From an uncultured Arenicella sp. (lineage in GTDB: Bacteria; Pseudomonadota; Gammaproteobacteria; Arenicellales; Arenicellaceae), in contig CALJJR010000123.1 in the NCBI GenBank assembly GCA_937973905.1, forward strand, positions 1-42,909: a stretch of DNA of 42,909 nucleotides, in the 5' to 3' direction. The position numbers were made by a program, and so were the translations under genes. Positions within the stretch are counted from its first letter, which is position 1; each line of letters begins with the position of its first letter. A model generated the notes under the pieces. It was not told where the DNA came from, made no database searches, and was given only the letters and a program-made list of their open reading frames with translations. This document shows positions 33,306 to 42,803 of this stretch, one piece after another.

Positions 33306-35663
33306 TTAAGGCTGTTGACTCGAGATTTCGTTTTGAAACGCCTGCGCTTGCGTATAGGGGTACCAATTAGAGTCTGCATCACCCCAAATTTCCAATGCTT
33401 GTTGCAAACGCTGCTCGGCCTCAGCCGTATTGTTTTGCTCAAACGCGGTCTGTGCCACTAGCAACAGAGTTTCTGGGTCAGCGGGGTGTCGCTGCAAATT
33501 GTCTGCGAGTATCCGATAAGCTGCAACGAAATCACCAACGGCGAAATAGGCTTTTGCCAATTCTCTAATGTTGGCGTTTATATCGAGTCTTCCTAGCGCC
33601 CTAGCTTGAAGAAGGTCTTTATCAATGATTTGTTCCGCTTTATCGATGAACTCAAGGGCCTTACCAGAATCACCCATCAGGGCATATTTTCTAGCAATTA
33701 ATGGATAGAAGAACTCCACGATTGCTGACGACTCTCCGTTTTCGATTCGATTGACACTGGCGATAAACTTCTCTTCATCGAGAGGTGACGAATAGATTGT
33801 CGCCAAAATTGTGTCCAGATAGATGGTAGGAAATTGCGTTAACTTGGATTCAAGCTCGGCGCTTTTTTGTTCAACTTCGTTGGTATTGCCACTCAATGCC
33901 ATCAAACGCAGGTCATAACTGTCTTGCGTCAACATCTTTTGGATCGGGCTTAAAGTCTGATCAGCAATTTTGGCGGCTTCTTGGTTGCTTGCAAGCGCTA
34001 AGCCCGGTTGCCCTAATTTCGCGTATATCTGAGTCTGAAGGTTGAGCACATCAAGGTTCTGTTGATTGCTAAGTGCTTCACTCCGAAGACTCTGCAGTTG
34101 CGATATCGCAGCTTTCGAATCACCAGATTTACTTAATACACGCGCCTTGCCAAGCTCTGCTTTGGATGGACTGTTGGGCAGAATCGCAGCTTTATCAAAC
34201 ACCGAGATTGATTCCTCTAGTTTGCCTTGCATCTCCTTGAGTTCCGCCAACTCAATCATGGTTAAGCCATCATCAGGCCGCTTCTGCAAATAGGTTTCCA
34301 AACTTCGTTCTGCCGCGGTGTAATCTTTTTGTCGCTGCTCAAACGTAGCCTGCAGTTTCAAATTTTCGTCATCCCATGGGCGCAACTCAGTAATCCGCTC
34401 TAGTGCTTGACCAGCGATAACCAATCCCTCCTCGCCGGGGCTGAACTGGCTCAGCTGGAATAAAGTGCGCCAGGTGGGATAATATCGCGGTTCTATTTCA
34501 GAGTGCATTTTCAAGACTTTGATGGCTTTGGAAAAGTCACCTGAAAACACATAGGACTGAGCTTTGGTGGTGTACTTGGAAGCGCTGGTAAGACGGTATG
34601 ATTTATTAAGTGCCAAGCGGTTATTGCTTAAGGCCTGGTCTTGATTGCCACTTAAAAAATAAAAGATAGAAAGTGAAGCAGCGGCCTCGGCAAAGTCAGG
34701 ATCTTGTTCCAGTGCCGCTTCTAAGAATTGAACGCCTGCTGGGTAATCGTTGGCTTGTGCCACCGCCAGCTTTGCTTGAATGTATTTCTCTAAGGCTAGC
34801 TCAGAGTCGGTAAAATGTTCCGCAACCGTGAGATTTTGATGTTGCGGCGCTGGCTCAATGTTGAGCGCGCTTTGAATCTGATCTGATGCGTGGTCTGCAA
34901 GCACAAACAAAGCACTGTCTCGTACCGTAAATTCACTGACGGTTTCACCGCTGCTGCGCTTTACGATCGCGATATCTAGTGCAAATTGATCCCCTTGTCG
35001 CTCTAAGGAACCGAAGAAGAAGTGATCGGCACCAATTAAATTTGCTATCTCGAACTGGAGAGACCGAGAAGAGGAGATCAAATTGTCGTCGCCCCGTTGC
35101 AACAACGAAGCTCTTGCTCTATCCGAATCCAAGGGGTCACGAGTGCCAATGGCCGGAGAAACATGGCGCAGGTCTTTATTGATCGCCTGTGTCAGTCCAT
35201 AGCTCGCCCAATCTAAGGAAGAATCACCGGTTTTATTTTCAATAAAGAAACCGAACAGGAATTGGTAATGATCTTGATTCGCCACCACCACCTGTTGGAT
35301 TTGGCCGGTTTCATCCTCTATTTCAGCGATGCGAGTTGCTGCTTCTACTTGGCCAAGATTTGGGAACCCCATGACAACAACCGTTGCTGCGACGAGCAAA
35401 TTAAGCGGTACAAAGAATTTTTCTAAACGGGTCCAGCGCTGCTTACCTGCCTCGCCATGGTTGTATACCAACAATAAAAACGCCGGCAGCATCATCAAGC
35501 TGATTAAAAACAAATAGGAGGTAAACGCCGGCGAGAAAGCAAAGCGTTCCGCTGCCCATTCGCCGAGCTCGATCAGCAACCATGTTCCAGCAATATAAGC
35601 AGCCAGATACTGAGGAATTCTGCGCTTGAGAGCACGTGCAAAAAAGCCTTCGTTGTTATTCAT
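33306..35663 (-). CDS. Membrane-anchored TPR-repeat protein
   Basis: About 785 residues from ATG 35663 (MNNNEGFFARALKRRIPQY). Three hydrophobic segments occupy roughly residues 20-115. A TolB-like domain of the kind that follows the membrane part in CadC/adenylate-cyclase-like proteins lies at about 130-290 (ADHFFFGSLERQGDQ). The remainder is a long array of tetratricopeptide repeats (for example LEQDPDFAEAAASLSIFYF and the final ADPETLLLVAQTAFEQN). The missing output domain (no HTH or cyclase) suggests a scaffold or sensor. It converges on the aminotransferase gene. Its role is unknown. Confidence 0.78.
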   Translation of the reverse strand: MNNNEGFFARALKRRIPQYLAAYIAGTWLLIELGEWAAERFAFSPAFTSYLFLISLMMLPAFLLLVYNHGEAGKQRWTRLEKFFVPLNLLVAATVVVMGFPNLGQVEAATRIAEIEDETGQIQQVVVANQDHYQFLFGFFIENKTGDSSLDWASYGLTQAINKDLRHVSPAIGTRDPLDSDRARASLLQRGDDNLISSSRSLQFEIANLIGADHFFFGSLERQGDQFALDIAIVKRSSGETVSEFTVRDSALFVLADHASDQIQSALNIEPAPQHQNLTVAEHFTDSELALEKYIQAKLAVAQANDYPAGVQFLEAALEQDPDFAEAAASLSIFYFLSGNQDQALSNNRLALNKSYRLTSASKYTTKAQSYVFSGDFSKAIKVLKMHSEIEPRYYPTWRTLFQLSQFSPGEEGLVIAGQALERITELRPWDDENLKLQATFEQRQKDYTAAERSLETYLQKRPDDGLTMIELAELKEMQGKLEESISVFDKAAILPNSPSKAELGKARVLSKSGDSKAAISQLQSLRSEALSNQQNLDVLNLQTQIYAKLGQPGLALASNQEAAKIADQTLSPIQKMLTQDSYDLRLMALSGNTNEVEQKSAELESKLTQFPTIYLDTILATIYSSPLDEEKFIASVNRIENGESSAIVEFFYPLIARKYALMGDSGKALEFIDKAEQIIDKDLLQARALGRLDINANIRELAKAYFAVGDFVAAYRILADNLQRHPADPETLLLVAQTAFEQNNTAEAEQRLQQALEIWGDADSNWYPYTQAQAFQNEISSQQP

Positions 35664-35841
35664 GGGGCGATTAGGAAAACTGCGATAGATAGATAGAAAC
35701 TTGCAGTCATTGTAGCAAGCTTCAATACAGATCACCTGTTTTCGGCTCCGATCTCCGAACGACTGTAGCCGAGCGTTCTACCGTTGCAGACTGTTGGACC
35801 CAGCCCCTCTAAACGCCTTCCTAAACAAGCAGGGCTACCTT

Positions 35842-36768
35842 CTATCGGTTAGGTTTCTCTCTCACTGTGACGCTCTTTAAGGTAACTTGCGACCCGGTGC
35901 TGATGATTTCAGGTATCGCCACCCACTCACGACCCGCTAGCATGAACCCGGGCTGTGACTCAGACTCTAATACTCCGTCACAACTATTTGCCGTAGTAGA
36001 CCCTGAAGCGACCGTACCACTGCCCTGCAGTGCAGCTCTATATCTGTAGCGAAATGGATTGGCTCCCGCATCTACCGTCCAGAAAAATTGGAACTGTAAT
36101 CTATTTGCACCTGCGGGTAGAGGGTCAGTGTCTTTCAAGAGTTCCGGGCCAACTTCAAGCACAAATGGCAATTCACCAGTTATCAGCCCTCCGGAGGGGG
36201 GAGGGCACGAAATAGTCGCATCATTAACGTCAAAATTGAGACTGGTATTTGCATAACAATCGATCCCTATGGCTTCATCTTCTCCGCCATCACAGTTCTC
36301 ATCAAACAGTGCATTGGAACTGCATTGCTCGAATGAGGTTGCGTTTTCTGGACACTGCACGTTGTCAAGAATGGTTCTAAGTGGCCCATCAGTGGTGGCT
36401 CCACTACTTCGATAAAACCCACCAGCGTAACCAATGGCGCGACATGAGAAATTGGCAATATCTCGTTGTTGTTCTGCATTACCTTCTATCAAATCGTCAC
36501 AGACTTTGCCCCAGATACTTTTACCATCTGGCGTTTTATCCGGCGTCCACTCCAGCCGACCAAAACTTGGGCCAGGAAGGCGCGGATTTGCTACTGAGTT
36601 ACCAGCAGAATCTAGGTCTTGGTGTGGCACAATTCGATATTGCGGTAGGGGCGTATCCTCCCCAGCAAGAGGTATCACCACTACTTTATTTTGTGCTTCG
36701 ACCTTGGCTGCAAGCGCCAGAGCGATAAATAAGGAAGCGAAGAATGGTAAACAGTAATTGCTTTTCAT
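35842..36768 (-). CDS. Secreted protein with an SRCR-like domain
   Basis: About 308 residues from ATG 36768, chosen because a signal peptide follows (MKSNYCLPFFASLFIALAL to VEAQ). The mature part opens with NKVVVIPLAGED. Then comes a scavenger-receptor cysteine-rich domain: GRLEW, IWGKVCDD, SCRAIGYAGG, ILDNVQCPENATSFEQC, ENCDGGEDEAIGIDC. Six cysteines in this order match group A SRCR domains, which are mainly known from animals. The C-terminal 150 residues look beta-rich with two more cysteines and no family I know. It stands beside the TPR and hybrid-kinase genes and diverges from the latter, so an envelope sensing or adhesion role is possible. Confidence 0.75.
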   Translation of the reverse strand: MKSNYCLPFFASLFIALALAAKVEAQNKVVVIPLAGEDTPLPQYRIVPHQDLDSAGNSVANPRLPGPSFGRLEWTPDKTPDGKSIWGKVCDDLIEGNAEQQRDIANFSCRAIGYAGGFYRSSGATTDGPLRTILDNVQCPENATSFEQCSSNALFDENCDGGEDEAIGIDCYANTSLNFDVNDATISCPPPSGGLITGELPFVLEVGPELLKDTDPLPAGANRLQFQFFWTVDAGANPFRYRYRAALQGSGTVASGSTTANSCDGVLESESQPGFMLAGREWVAIPEIISTGSQVTLKSVTVREKPNR

Positions 36769-37039
36769 GGTTCTGAACCAGATCTTGAGGCATAACAGCC
36801 TCATCATAGGAATGAAGGAATCTAACCACCGATCGAGGCCCACTACTACGGCAAAACCGGCATCTGACGCGTCAGTGCTAGTATTTGACTTGTTTGTGCT
36901 ACTAAACAAAAAACGAAACACATGTCTAGCAAAACCGCTTAACTGGACACATCGACATGCATTAGTAAATTTACCGGCTTCTTAGCTCAAAAAAGGTGCG
37001 GTATGATTTGTTGGCTAACCACGCTCCTGTCTCAAACCC

Positions 37040-40030
37040 TTGCGCATTCCATTTCTCTCGATTTCGTTGCTTGTTTTTGTGTGCCTAGGCATTTCACCTA
37101 GCGCCGCTCACGCAAGCAAGTGCATGCAAGTCAATGGTGAGATGCAACGCGTCAATGTTCTGCCCTATGTACAACACTTCGCAGATCTGGATGATTCCAT
37201 CGCAATCCCAATTGATGTGCAGCAAACTTCTTTAAACAAGCTGTTTTCCGAAACGACATTTAGGCAAGTAAAGCCTGAAGGCGAGCAGTATGTACTTGGC
37301 GAAGCTCAAACCAATCATTGGTTGCGGTTTTGTTTACAAAATACATCGACGCAAATACAGGATTTGGTGTTGGTGACCACACCACCGATCGTCAACCAGA
37401 TCGATTTTTACCCGCAAAAGCCGGGCGCAAAATCGTTTCAAACCGGTTACGGAAAACCGTTTAACAGCCGCGACCTTCACAGCCCAGAGTTTCACTTTGC
37501 CGTTGAACTAGAGCCTGGGGAAACACAGGATTACTACTTTAGAATTCGAAGCTTTGCCCACGCGTACATAACACTAGAGCTCTGGGACAAAACTAACTAC
37601 GGCATCGTGAAAGATCACACAGAAGTTCTTGATGGTGTGATTGCCGGAGTTTTGCTGGGCTTGATTTTGTACAATTTGTTGGTGTTTGCATCGGTGCGTC
37701 ATGCAACATCTTTTTGGTACATTGCTTGGGCGAGCTGTACCTTAGGAATTTTGGCCTTGTTCGACGGCCGGGTCTTGCAATACGTATTTCCTAACGCTCC
37801 AAATATCGTCGCCCTTCTCACCACAATCTGGTATCCATTGGCGGTCACCGTATCGGCTTGGTTTGCGCGTGAGTTTATCCAACTTAAAAATTACCCACGC
37901 TTAGATACAATCGCCAAGGCATTAATCAGCCTTTCTATCTTGGGCCTATTGATCATCTATCCTGCCGATAAATCTCAGTACCTATTGGCCTGCGCAATTT
38001 ATATGCTCGCAGTGATCGTGTACTTTGGGCTGATCACACCGATCTATAGCGCGTTAAAGGACAACTCTGCGCAGGCCAAATACTTACTCGGTGCGCAGCT
38101 GCCATTGATGATTTGTTTTATCGATCGAAGCTTGCTGAATCTCGGCGTTAGCAACCAACACTTCATTCCTTATACCCCAAAGGTTGGCCTCGTGACTGAG
38201 ATGGTGTTACTCGGCTTTTTTGTCGGTCGATCAATTAATCGCGAGAAAGAAGAAGCGCAACAGTTGGCTATGAAGCAGCTTGAGATTTCCAATCAGCTAA
38301 AGAGCAACTACAACGAGCAGCTTGAAAGCGAGATTGAAAAAAATACCGCAGAAATACGGGCTATGAATGTCGATCTTGAAAAACAAGCTAAAAAATTGAT
38401 CGAACTGGACAAAGTAAAATCAGATTTTTTTGCTAACGTCAGCCATGAGCTAAGAACACCTCTGACGCTAATACAAGGGCCATTAAACCAGCTTGGAGAG
38501 CAAACATCTTTACAACAGAAAGGGCTTGTCGAAGGCGCTCTCCGTCACTCTAAGAACTTACAAAAGATGATTGATCAATTGCTCACCTTGAGCAAATTCG
38601 ACAATAAATCCTTACAGTTGCGTGCGGCAAAAAATGACATTGTTAGCCTTGTTAGAAATTTCACGGCGCAATTCGACAGCTTGGCCCTAGAGCATAAAAT
38701 AGCGCTGATTTTCAAATCTGACCATAACTCTCTGCCCGCTTACGTAGACGCTGACAAAGTACAAATCATCATCAACAACTTATTGAAGAATGCGATTAAA
38801 TTTACACCCGCAGGAGGCACCATCAAGGTGGAGGTCAGCGCAGACCTCAGCAACGATGCTCTGCAAGAACAGGACTACGCCGATGATAAATACTTAGTGG
38901 TTACGGTGTCCGACACGGGGCACGGAGTAGCACAAGATGAACTCCCTTATATTTTTGATCGCTTTTATCAAGCTAGAGGGGCCGACCGAGACATCACTGG
39001 AACTGGCATCGGCCTAGCCCTGGTTAAGGAACTTGTGACCCTGCATGCGGGTGAGATAAGTGTTGAAAGTCGAACTGCCAACATCAGCGACAGCGATGAA
39101 CACGCTTCAGGCACCACTTTTTGCGTTTCGTTGCCGTTAGGAAAGGCTCACCTCACGCCGGCCGAGCTCGATCTTTCATCGGTAACGATCCATGAATTTG
39201 AGACCAAAGATTTATCGCGAAGAAGTAATCAGCTACCAACGGCTGAAGAGAAGAGAACGCGAAATCAAACCGTCTTAATTGTTGACGACAATGCCGATAT
39301 GCGAAGCCATTTGCGAGACCTATTAGAAGAAGACTATCAAGTCGTTGAAGCAGCAAATGGCCTTGAGGGAGAACGTCAGGCTGTAGCGACTAATCCCGAC
39401 CTAATTGTTACTGATCTTATGATGCCAAAACGCAATGGTCTTGAATTCGTGGCCTGCGTAAAAAAACAAGCTGCCTTAGCTCACATCCCGGTGATCATGC
39501 TAACTGCCAAAGCCGGTCAGGATGATCGAGTGAAAGGTTTGTTGGCGGCGGTGGATGATTATTTAGCTAAACCCTTTCATGCCCTTGAGCTCAAATTGAA
39601 AATCCGCAATCTGATTCTGAAGAGAACGCAGTTCGAGGCTTTTTATGCCGCTCAAGATTCGCAATCGACTGCGACCGAATCCGACCTCAACATCGAACAT
39701 CATTTGATGCAAACACTTAAGAGCGCGGTTCTCAAACACCTGACTGAAGCGGAGTTTGGCGTCCCAGAACTCGCCGACGCGGTGCATATGAGCCCATCCA
39801 CCTTACGCCGAAAGCTTGGTGAGATATCAAATTTTACGCCATCCGAGTTTATTCGACACTGCCGCTTAGACCGCGCCAAACAGTTGGCTGAACGCGGTGA
39901 GATGCGCACCATTGCACAACTTGCCCATTCAGTCGGATTTAACCATCCGGGGTATTTTTCCAAACTTTACCAACAGGCATTTAATCAAGACCCTCTCGCG
40001 CAAGTTCAGGCACTCAACGTAGCTAAATAG
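37040..40030 (+). CDS. Hybrid sensor: 7TM-DISM, histidine kinase, receiver and AraC domains in one protein
   Basis: A 996-residue protein. Signal peptide (about 1-26), DISM-type periplasmic beta domain (about 40-185), seven membrane helices (about 195-400), coiled coil, HisKA with phospho-accepting His469 (ANVSHELRTP), HATPase (NNLLKNAIKFTP, DTGHGV, GTGIGLALVKE), receiver with Asp792 (VTDLMMPKRNG), and C-terminal AraC HTH (MSPSTLRRKLGEI, then GFNHPGYFSKLYQQ). It should sense a periplasmic ligand and directly regulate transcription. TTG 37040 is the only possible start after an in-frame stop at 37016. Targets are unknown. The neighbouring SRCR protein and beta-helix protein are candidates. Confidence 0.9.
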   Translation: MRIPFLSISLLVFVCLGISPSAAHASKCMQVNGEMQRVNVLPYVQHFADLDDSIAIPIDVQQTSLNKLFSETTFRQVKPEGEQYVLGEAQTNHWLRFCLQNTSTQIQDLVLVTTPPIVNQIDFYPQKPGAKSFQTGYGKPFNSRDLHSPEFHFAVELEPGETQDYYFRIRSFAHAYITLELWDKTNYGIVKDHTEVLDGVIAGVLLGLILYNLLVFASVRHATSFWYIAWASCTLGILALFDGRVLQYVFPNAPNIVALLTTIWYPLAVTVSAWFAREFIQLKNYPRLDTIAKALISLSILGLLIIYPADKSQYLLACAIYMLAVIVYFGLITPIYSALKDNSAQAKYLLGAQLPLMICFIDRSLLNLGVSNQHFIPYTPKVGLVTEMVLLGFFVGRSINREKEEAQQLAMKQLEISNQLKSNYNEQLESEIEKNTAEIRAMNVDLEKQAKKLIELDKVKSDFFANVSHELRTPLTLIQGPLNQLGEQTSLQQKGLVEGALRHSKNLQKMIDQLLTLSKFDNKSLQLRAAKNDIVSLVRNFTAQFDSLALEHKIALIFKSDHNSLPAYVDADKVQIIINNLLKNAIKFTPAGGTIKVEVSADLSNDALQEQDYADDKYLVVTVSDTGHGVAQDELPYIFDRFYQARGADRDITGTGIGLALVKELVTLHAGEISVESRTANISDSDEHASGTTFCVSLPLGKAHLTPAELDLSSVTIHEFETKDLSRRSNQLPTAEEKRTRNQTVLIVDDNADMRSHLRDLLEEDYQVVEAANGLEGERQAVATNPDLIVTDLMMPKRNGLEFVACVKKQAALAHIPVIMLTAKAGQDDRVKGLLAAVDDYLAKPFHALELKLKIRNLILKRTQFEAFYAAQDSQSTATESDLNIEHHLMQTLKSAVLKHLTEAEFGVPELADAVHMSPSTLRRKLGEISNFTPSEFIRHCRLDRAKQLAERGEMRTIAQLAHSVGFNHPGYFSKLYQQAFNQDPLAQVQALNVAK

Positions 40031-41000: not shown

Positions 41001-42803
41001 ATGCCTCCACTCAAGCCATTTGAAAAAAGCTGTCTCGCCATCGTCATAGGCCAAATGTTTACTGCCCCCATTGCGCAAAGCGCGGTAATCACCCTCGGCC
41101 CGATGTGCGATTTGAACCAAGCCATTCAGAGTGCCAACCTGGATTCCAAGTACGCGGCGATGTACTGCCAAGCCTCCTTCACTCCGGGGGGCCACGATAC
41201 TATTGTGTTGACACCGAGTTCTGTGCTCAGCATATCAACGGGTTTTGCCAACTCGAGTAACAACACTTTTACCGGCACACCATTTGTCACCAGCGCAATC
41301 ACCATTGAAGGCGGTGGCGCGACCATTCAGCGCCAATCAAGCGCCCCATTTCGCCTGCTCGCCGTAACTGGTTCCGGCAATCTGACACTCAATGATTTAA
41401 CGCTTAGCGGCGGCAGCTTGACCAATCAAGGCAGTGGAGGTGCTGTCTATGTGGCTGCTAATGCCAAGCTGACCATGAACAATGTAACCGTCTCAGGCAA
41501 TACGGTCAGCGCAAACAATGGGGGTGGGTTGTACGCTCGCGGTGGTCAGATTGATATTCGTAACTCAGTGGTAACCCAGAACCAAGCTCTCAAAGGCGGC
41601 GGCATCGATTTAGATTCTTTCGCCAGTCTGAGTGTTCAAAACAGTGAAATACGCTCGAATTTAGCGTTCGAGGGTGGTGGTGGCATATTTCTAGCCCCGA
41701 ACGCCACCGCCAGCCTAATCAACGCGGATGTCACAACTAACACAGGGCTTATGCGCGGCGGTGGAATTTACGCAGGGGCCGATTCGAGCTTATCGCTGCG
41801 CAGGAGCAGCGTTTTTGCAAATAGAACTCGAGACACATTTGCAGTTAACCCAGGTAATACGATTGCCGCGGCATTGGGAGGCGCACTTTTTTCAGAAGGC
41901 GCCAAAATGACCATTGCAGACACCAAGTTTCAGGCGAATTACGCCACTTCTCAAGGAGGAGGAATCTTCCAAAGGAACGGAGAATCAACCATCTCCGATT
42001 GTTACTTTTACGAAAATAATGCGATCGGTGGTGAGGGTGGCGCCATCGCTGCGCGGTCAGCCGATATCGACATCAAAAGATCAACCTTCTTTAGAAACGG
42101 AGCTGGCGCGAACGCCGGCGCCATCAGCGTCGCCTTTAACGGTGGAACGGTCGGCGTTTACAACTCCACCTTTAGTTTTAATAACGCTGAGTTCGGTTCG
42201 GTCTTCTCATCAAGGTTCAATGGTCAATTAAGGGTCACTAACAGCACCTTGAGCTTCAACTCTCAAACAGAAAATGGAGCTGTTTATTTGCGCGGCGCGA
42301 GCATATTGATACGAAACAGTATCGTTGCAGGCAATACCAGCACGGTCTCTAACGCGCTACCCGCGCACGAACTTTATGTAAGCACAAGCAATCCATCCAT
42401 CACGCCACTAAATTCGTTGGTACTACAAAGTAATGTGCTTGGCCAAGTAGCCAACACCTCTGCCGCCTCGTTCATTGGTACAACAATTGGAAACAGTAAC
42501 ATCACGGCCACGAGCGATGGAAATTCGCCAACAGCGCTTTCTTCAATAGTCAGCCAATTCCTGAGTTATAACGGTGGCGCCACCCCAACTCACGCGTTAG
42601 TTGCAAACAGCCCAGCCATAGACGCGGGCAATCAAAACGTCTGCAATATTTCAGCACTGGCTAAGAAGGATCAACGCGGCTTTTTTCATTTAGGCATCTG
42701 CGACATCGGCGCTTTTGAGTTTGGTGGTTTAGAGAGCTTACCGTTTGACCCCGCGGGTACTATACCCAGCGTGAACCTGTTGCTCTTGGATGAAGATGAG
42801 TAG
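41001..42803 (+). CDS. Secreted right-handed beta-helix repeat protein (choice-of-anchor Q-like)
   Basis: A 600-residue protein with a signal-like N-terminus (KSCLAIVIGQMFTAPIAQSA). The body is built of short repeats of the polymorphic-outer-membrane type (GGGGIF, SGGAVYVA, GGGIYAGADS patterns) forming a parallel beta-helix. The C-terminus has the AIDAGNQNVCNI...DQRGF...CDIGAFEF signature common at the end of such proteins, followed by an acidic tail (LLLLDEDE). Such proteins are surface-exposed or secreted adhesins or glycan-binding proteins. No sorting or autotransporter barrel is visible. No clear ribosome site precedes ATG 41001. Confidence 0.82.
   Translation: MPPLKPFEKSCLAIVIGQMFTAPIAQSAVITLGPMCDLNQAIQSANLDSKYAAMYCQASFTPGGHDTIVLTPSSVLSISTGFANSSNNTFTGTPFVTSAITIEGGGATIQRQSSAPFRLLAVTGSGNLTLNDLTLSGGSLTNQGSGGAVYVAANAKLTMNNVTVSGNTVSANNGGGLYARGGQIDIRNSVVTQNQALKGGGIDLDSFASLSVQNSEIRSNLAFEGGGGIFLAPNATASLINADVTTNTGLMRGGGIYAGADSSLSLRRSSVFANRTRDTFAVNPGNTIAAALGGALFSEGAKMTIADTKFQANYATSQGGGIFQRNGESTISDCYFYENNAIGGEGGAIAARSADIDIKRSTFFRNGAGANAGAISVAFNGGTVGVYNSTFSFNNAEFGSVFSSRFNGQLRVTNSTLSFNSQTENGAVYLRGASILIRNSIVAGNTSTVSNALPAHELYVSTSNPSITPLNSLVLQSNVLGQVANTSAASFIGTTIGNSNITATSDGNSPTALSSIVSQFLSYNGGATPTHALVANSPAIDAGNQNVCNISALAKKDQRGFFHLGICDIGAFEFGGLESLPFDPAGTIPSVNLLLLDEDE

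Follow-up and report, generated by a model that had tools for sequence, protein, structure and literature searches.

Gene content of the locus

The window, by which we mean the whole analysed stretch of 42,909 nucleotides from a marine gammaproteobacterium, carries a complete gene of 308 amino acids plus stop codon on the minus strand (35842..36768). According to its translation and Pfam, the product consists of four parts: a signal peptide, a short N-terminal tag, a scavenger receptor cysteine-rich (SRCR) domain and a C-terminal beta domain. The signal peptide (residues 1-25; 36694..36768, minus strand) is evident from the sequence, with cleavage expected after VEA and no lipobox cysteine at the cleavage site. 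The first-pass annotation, which had been made from the sequence alone, described the protein as secreted, and this description stands. The base composition of the gene is near-normal, with a GC content of 0.489 compared to 0.471 for the window and a GC3 of 0.36 in the SRCR part.

The gene is separated from a divergently oriented gene for a hybrid histidine kinase, a candidate regulator (37040..40030, plus strand), by an intergenic region (36769..37039), where both promoters are expected from the gene layout; a promoter scan of this region with the consensus was uninformative. Upstream lies a large TPR gene (33306-35735, minus strand) whose product has an N-terminal membrane segment. At E 1e-60, no orthologue of it was found elsewhere in the genus, so that gene order at this place is uninformative on a possible insertion. 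At 41001-42803 (plus strand), the window encodes a secreted repeat protein with a choice-of-anchor Q domain (NF041518), and relatives with a similar N-terminus occur near tagged genes in two other genomes of our set, G004 (L026:7754-9406) and G010 (L037:3328-4896). By eye, the region 300-27800 has the look of a catabolic island, containing MFS transporters, two Baeyer-Villiger-type monooxygenases, two acyl-CoA synthetases, a PQQ-type dehydrogenase, a xanthine-dehydrogenase-like pair and a TonB receptor.

A complete, group-A-like SRCR domain

The SRCR domain comprises residues 42-172 (36253..36645, minus strand). In a Pfam search of the protein, PF00530 (SRCR) was matched with 35.3 bits (gathering score 26.1; E 1.5e-8) and was the sole Pfam family found; Lcl_C/DUF1566 (PF07603) was not matched, and neither was any NCBIfam model. 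In the genome search, PF00530 scored 37.7 bits, and the control search of 14 well-known genomes gave no SRCR match in any of them. The PDB sequence search returned SRCR-bearing proteins only, with MARCO as the best match (E 1.6e-4), and further matches to CD5L, DMBT1, M2BP, neurotrypsin and SCARA5 and, weakly, to the likewise SRCR-bearing TMPRSS2. The protein displays the landmarks WGKVCDD (C90), CRAIGY (C109), ILDNVQC (C139) and EDEAIGIDC (C171), and its SRCR domain has exactly six cysteines (C90, C109, C139, C149, C159 and C171), which is the count of group A without the extra pair of group B; the disulfide pairing to be expected for group A would be C2-C7, C3-C8 and C5-C6.

An AlphaFold model built on a nine-row alignment, of mediocre quality overall (mean pLDDT 61), places an SRCR fold at residues 39-175, where the pLDDT is 60-84 for the most part. 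In the structural comparison, each of the 38 top-ranking matches was an SRCR structure or a protein bearing this domain (Z up to 12.1), the next unrelated rows lying at about 6, and Foldseek gave an E of 2.3e-5. These matches span from residue 39-43 to residue 172-175 and are longer than the Pfam core (residues 84-171; 36256-36519). As the model puts the start of the domain right after residue 40, the Pfam core represents only part of it. The SRCR domain is thus genuine, complete and group-A-like. A bacterial SRCR domain had been proposed in the first-pass annotation, and it is borne out by a profile match above the curated cut-off, by the six cysteines and four landmarks, and by a structure prediction that gave the SRCR fold and no different one. 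The separate domain that the same annotation saw in the C-terminal half is likewise recovered. Residues 173-308 (35845..36252, minus strand) are predicted to be all-beta with eight strands, at modest confidence (AlphaFold, single sequence; pLDDT 66), and contain two cysteines, C188 and C263. This domain has no sequence relatives in Pfam, PDB or plasmids, and among the listed folds none matched above noise (best Z 5.2).

Compared to the animal group A SRCRs (MARCO, SR-A1, SCARA5, M2BP) and to SRCR8 of SALSA/DMBT1, the window domain has the same fold and six cysteines, the WG-VCDD, LDN-C and ED landmarks and the D-D-E of cation site 2. It differs in being a single domain with a bacterial tag before it and a beta domain of no known family after it, in an insertion after CDD, and in its sequence, at about 27-38% identity.

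A candidate ligand-binding site

In SRCR8 of SALSA, cations bridge ligands via D1019, D1020 and E1086 (site 2), the cation residues of site 3 are D1020, D1058, D1059 and N1081, and alanine at D1019 or D1020 leads to a loss of binding to hydroxyapatite, heparin and a streptococcal protein (PMC7043408). According to our alignment, site 2 is intact in the window SRCR, with D91 and D92 (36493..36498, minus strand) in the place of D1019 and D1020 and E163 in the place of E1086. The equivalents of site 3 are D92, D135, N136 and N158, three of the four being identical. The remaining position is changed from D to N within the pair D135-N136 (36361..36366, minus strand; aligned to D1058/D1059), as in MARCO, which also reads LDN. 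N158, aligned to N1081, lies together with E163 at 36280..36297 (minus strand). The buried aspartates of site 1 are disturbed by the insertion after CDD. What is conserved here are the residues, and the binding of cations and ligands is predicted from them.

A genus-wide N-terminal tag

The sequence QNKVVVIPLAGED follows directly after the signal peptide of the SRCR protein. The mature N-terminal tag, QNKVVVIPLAGEDT (residues 26-39; 36652..36693, minus strand), was overlooked in the first-pass annotation, which is incomplete on that point. In the AlphaFold model, residues 22-39 lie outside the SRCR fold with a pLDDT below 50. A search with the N-terminus alone showed that almost all genomes of the genus encode similar N-termini on other proteins. 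Using a profile built from 29 such N-termini (profile A3), the tag was found in 17 of the 18 genomes of the genus with 1-15 copies each, including 12 matches at E up to 0.05 in the genome of the window. Outside the genus, a small number of genomes from one further family of the order also match, and the same profile gave no convincing match in 249 genomes across the phylum. In total, 84 tagged members were collected, and within the genus the tag stands at the start of about 80 secreted proteins. The tag follows the consensus (Q/H)NKVVV(I/V)P(L/M)xGDD, directly after an A-x-A cleavage site at which no lipobox cysteine was seen. With a signal peptide followed by the tag (profile A3, E 2e-15), the SRCR protein fits the definition of the tag family and has the same layout as its other members.

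The tag matched no model in Pfam or NCBIfam, and a text search of the literature for KVVVIPL gave no match. The CSLREA N-terminal domain (TIGR04214) resembles the window tag in that it is short, conserved and located close to the N-terminus of diverse surface proteins, but it differs from the tag in sequence; neither it nor any other N-terminal tag model was among the NCBIfam families matched by 81 tagged members. We also found no tag relative in viral contigs and, in the neighbourhoods of the tagged genes, no gene that always accompanies them.

The first V and the P do not vary among the 76 members that fit the tag pattern, and the codons at these positions are used at about genome background rates. 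An invariant peptide written in codons at background rates indicates selection on the peptide itself. We further compared 2026 pairs of tagged proteins with unrelated cargo (72 members, 23 cargo clusters), which showed an identity of 72% in the tag, a value inflated at the pattern columns because only pattern-fitting members were included, compared to 14% in the signal and 7% after the tag. The low identity of the flanks suggests that such pairs have little in common besides the tag. These data also bear on the idea that the tag has no sorting role and is a leftover of duplications, in which a cassette of promoter, signal peptide and protein start recombined onto new cargo. Many copies per genome and varied cargo do suggest shuffling, but with the signal diverged and the tag codons randomised, the near-invariance of V-V-V and P requires continuing selection on the tag peptide, and we therefore regard a mere leftover as quite improbable.

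Among the 81 tagged members analysed with Pfam, the most frequent cargo is Lcl_C (17), followed by pectate-lyase-like beta-helix (13) and collagen (7). Rarer are phage tail collar (4), DUF1554 (3), CBM5/12 (3), FGE-sulfatase (2) and SRCR (2). The adhesin models of NCBIfam found among the tagged members are those of the collagen-like adhesin Lcl, Lsa25 and Scl types. The Lcl protein of Legionella, a surface-bound adhesin found in the type II secretome, has sulfated glycosaminoglycans among its ligands and binds fucoidan through its collagen part (PMC11162425). Lcl has Lcl_C and collagen repeats in common with the tagged family, and it is secreted, surface-bound and able to bind sulfated polysaccharides; in contrast to the window protein with its beta-strand tag, it has a helical mature N-terminus (PMC11162425) and no SRCR domain. 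Taken together with the biology of Lcl, the adhesin-type cargo makes the tagged family read as extracellular binding proteins, and the SRCR domain fits into this range. The SRCR protein is best described as belonging to a genus-specific family of secreted binding proteins that share the tag. Adhesion or polyanion binding had already been named as a possible role in the first-pass annotation, and this suggestion is strengthened by the conserved cation-bridging residues and by the co-tagged Lcl_C, CBM and collagen-like cargo, the binding itself being a prediction.

Several further features were seen among the tagged genes. Tagged Lcl_C genes are often trailed directly by at least one untagged Lcl_C gene on the same strand (loci L015, L036, L037, L096, L131 and others), which looks as though several untagged subunits shared one that is tagged. 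The beta-helix proteins (L014, L019, L021, L026, L028 and others) have a common C-terminal motif, C-x-FVF ... LD-x-x-C, which is perhaps a cap or a trimer lock. Locus L096 (G015:C11:1-18500) is a local hot spot with four tagged or tag-like genes within 18 kb.

The neighbouring kinase

The divergent kinase consists, according to Pfam, of 7TMR-DISMED2, 7TMR-DISM_7TM, HisKA, HATPase, receiver and AraC-type HTH domains. Counting the window, there are eight loci of this kinase in the genus. It directly adjoins a tagged gene in the window and, as an orthologue, in two other genomes: in G015, where the cargo is Lcl_C and the genes are divergent, and in G002, where the tagged gene is downstream on the same strand and is the only one found in that genome. 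In G008, a tagged gene lies about 3 kb from the kinase. The remaining copies adjoin other genes, several of which, judged by eye, encode secreted or outer-membrane proteins. The chance of at least two of the seven loci other than the window adjoining a tagged gene is about 6e-5 in a simple gene-order estimate that is uncorrected for the several neighbour types examined.

A link to the neighbouring sensor had been raised in the first-pass annotation. The adjacency in two other genomes, which is above chance, speaks for it, and a regulatory link from the kinase to the SRCR gene is suggested as likely. A closer relationship, in which the SRCR protein works as an accessory of the kinase by binding a ligand in the periplasm or at the surface and handing it to the sensor, would also accommodate the divergent gene pair and the adjacencies in G015 and G002. 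The cargo of the neighbour differs each time, however (SRCR, Lcl_C and another type), at five of the eight kinase loci neither direct neighbour is tagged, such a kinase is absent from the surroundings of most tagged genes, and the AraC-type output fits gene regulation better than a receptor complex. We consider an accessory role unlikely.

Distribution and origin of the SRCR domain

SRCR domains were found in 2 of the 18 genomes of the genus, in 2 of 109 genomes of the order (above cut-off) and in 1 of 398 genomes sampled across the phylum, and three other MAGs carry them, in agreement with the earlier remark that such domains are uncommon in bacteria. The second SRCR of the genus (66 bits) is found in G011, the MAG ALOHA_ZT_16 from Station ALOHA, in a protein of cleaner architecture that consists of signal, tag and SRCR and then ends. 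Its gene is not next to a kinase of the above type, its neighbourhood is unrelated, and no synteny between the two SRCR genes was seen. A whole-protein search of genome contigs with the window protein gave no match.

The three other MAGs encode multi-SRCR proteins. The gammaproteobacterial SB0662_bin_58, of a series of sponge origin, has seven SRCR matches, one of them below cut-off, and encodes an open frame of more than 2,800 amino acids (L040:7800-16318) in which three SRCRs are interspersed with cadherin-, FN3- and LRR-like repeats. Nine matches were found in the Myxococcota genome MAG.78, where one protein (L041:6591-10298) combines, by eye, an M23-like peptidase, SRCR, cysteine-rich repeats and a MYXO-CTERM-like tail, and five in the Oceanospirillales MAG ERR3139975_bin.4. 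Like the window protein, these proteins are SRCR-bearing and predicted to be secreted; they differ from its 308 amino acids in being about 850 to more than 2,800 amino acids long, with several SRCRs or an M23-like peptidase and cadherin- or FN3-like repeats. None of the three of these SRCR proteins that were examined showed the tag.

Several candidates were set aside. A phage or plasmid origin of the domain was rejected, since neither the 50,697 phage records nor the 72,556 plasmid records contained an SRCR. The one IMG/VR viral contig encoding an SRCR protein, L038 (IMGVR_UViG_3300044701_004957), was dismissed as a viral or bacterial case, as the long proline stretches and transmembrane segments of this protein make the contig look green-algal or otherwise eukaryotic. 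The SRCR match in G482 (21 bits, below cut-off, with an internal stop) was rejected as due to chance. Contamination of the window MAG was likewise rejected, since the gene carries the genus-specific tag, sits among bacterial genes and is of near-normal composition.

The phylogeny that had been suggested as a test of transfer from eukaryotes was calculated. The window SRCR, which is divergent and sits on a long branch, pairs with the SRCR of G011 (support 96/87), and nearly all deeper nodes, and with them the direction of transfer, are unresolved. A eukaryote-to-bacterium transfer is plausible from the distribution, but the shortness of the domain precludes a resolved tree and leaves the transfer unproven. 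Our literature searches brought up no paper on the SRCR domain in Myxococcota, and none that treats SRCR together with horizontal gene transfer and bacterial genomes. A transfer from an animal or alga might have supplied a host mimic, for example a decoy for the ligands of host SRCRs in an animal-associated bacterium. Animals have many SRCRs and bacteria only scattered ones, expansions have been reported in sponges (PMC4772301), and the SB0662-series MAG offers another bacterial case. Yet the tree gives no direction, the Station ALOHA MAG shows no sign of an animal host, and the window gene has a near-normal base composition and the native tag. Host mimicry is hence an improbable explanation in our judgement.

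Proposed function and significance

We posit, at roughly even odds, that the SRCR protein is a secreted, cation-dependent polyanion- or glycan-binding surface adhesin that is delivered or anchored via the genus-specific N-terminal tag and possibly regulated by the kinase. Cleavage by signal peptidase would expose a free N-terminal strand (QNKVVVIPL, in the peptide QNKVVVIPLAGDD), which may dock to a common partner, so that the cargo is exported or held at the outer surface. The partner of the tag was not found, and export or anchoring is thus a guess from the position and conservation of the tag. The SRCR domain would then bind anionic ligands through bound Ca2+ or Mg2+, as animal SRCRs do, the likeliest ligands being polysaccharides with sulfate or carboxyl groups that are found on particles or on the surfaces of eukaryotes. 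The same tag may display many alternative binding domains across the genus, and the divergent 7TMR-DISM hybrid kinase may switch on the SRCR gene in response to an extracellular cue.

More tentatively, and with a probability that we place somewhat short of even, (Q/H)NKVVV(I/V)P(L/M)xGDD may be a signal for sorting or docking that has not been described before. As a free beta-strand, it would insert into a dedicated partner at the outer surface, and the genus would in this way display a large repertoire of exchangeable binding domains, among them a captured animal-type SRCR. SRCR domains are regarded as a hallmark of animals, and a bacterial SRCR with ligand-bridging residues within a tagged family makes the origin and ancestral function of the domain testable. 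Should the tag prove to be a sorting signal, it would represent a new Gram-negative route in which one machinery displays many proteins, with a logic comparable to that of PEP-CTERM or GlyGly-CTERM, but at the opposite end of the protein.
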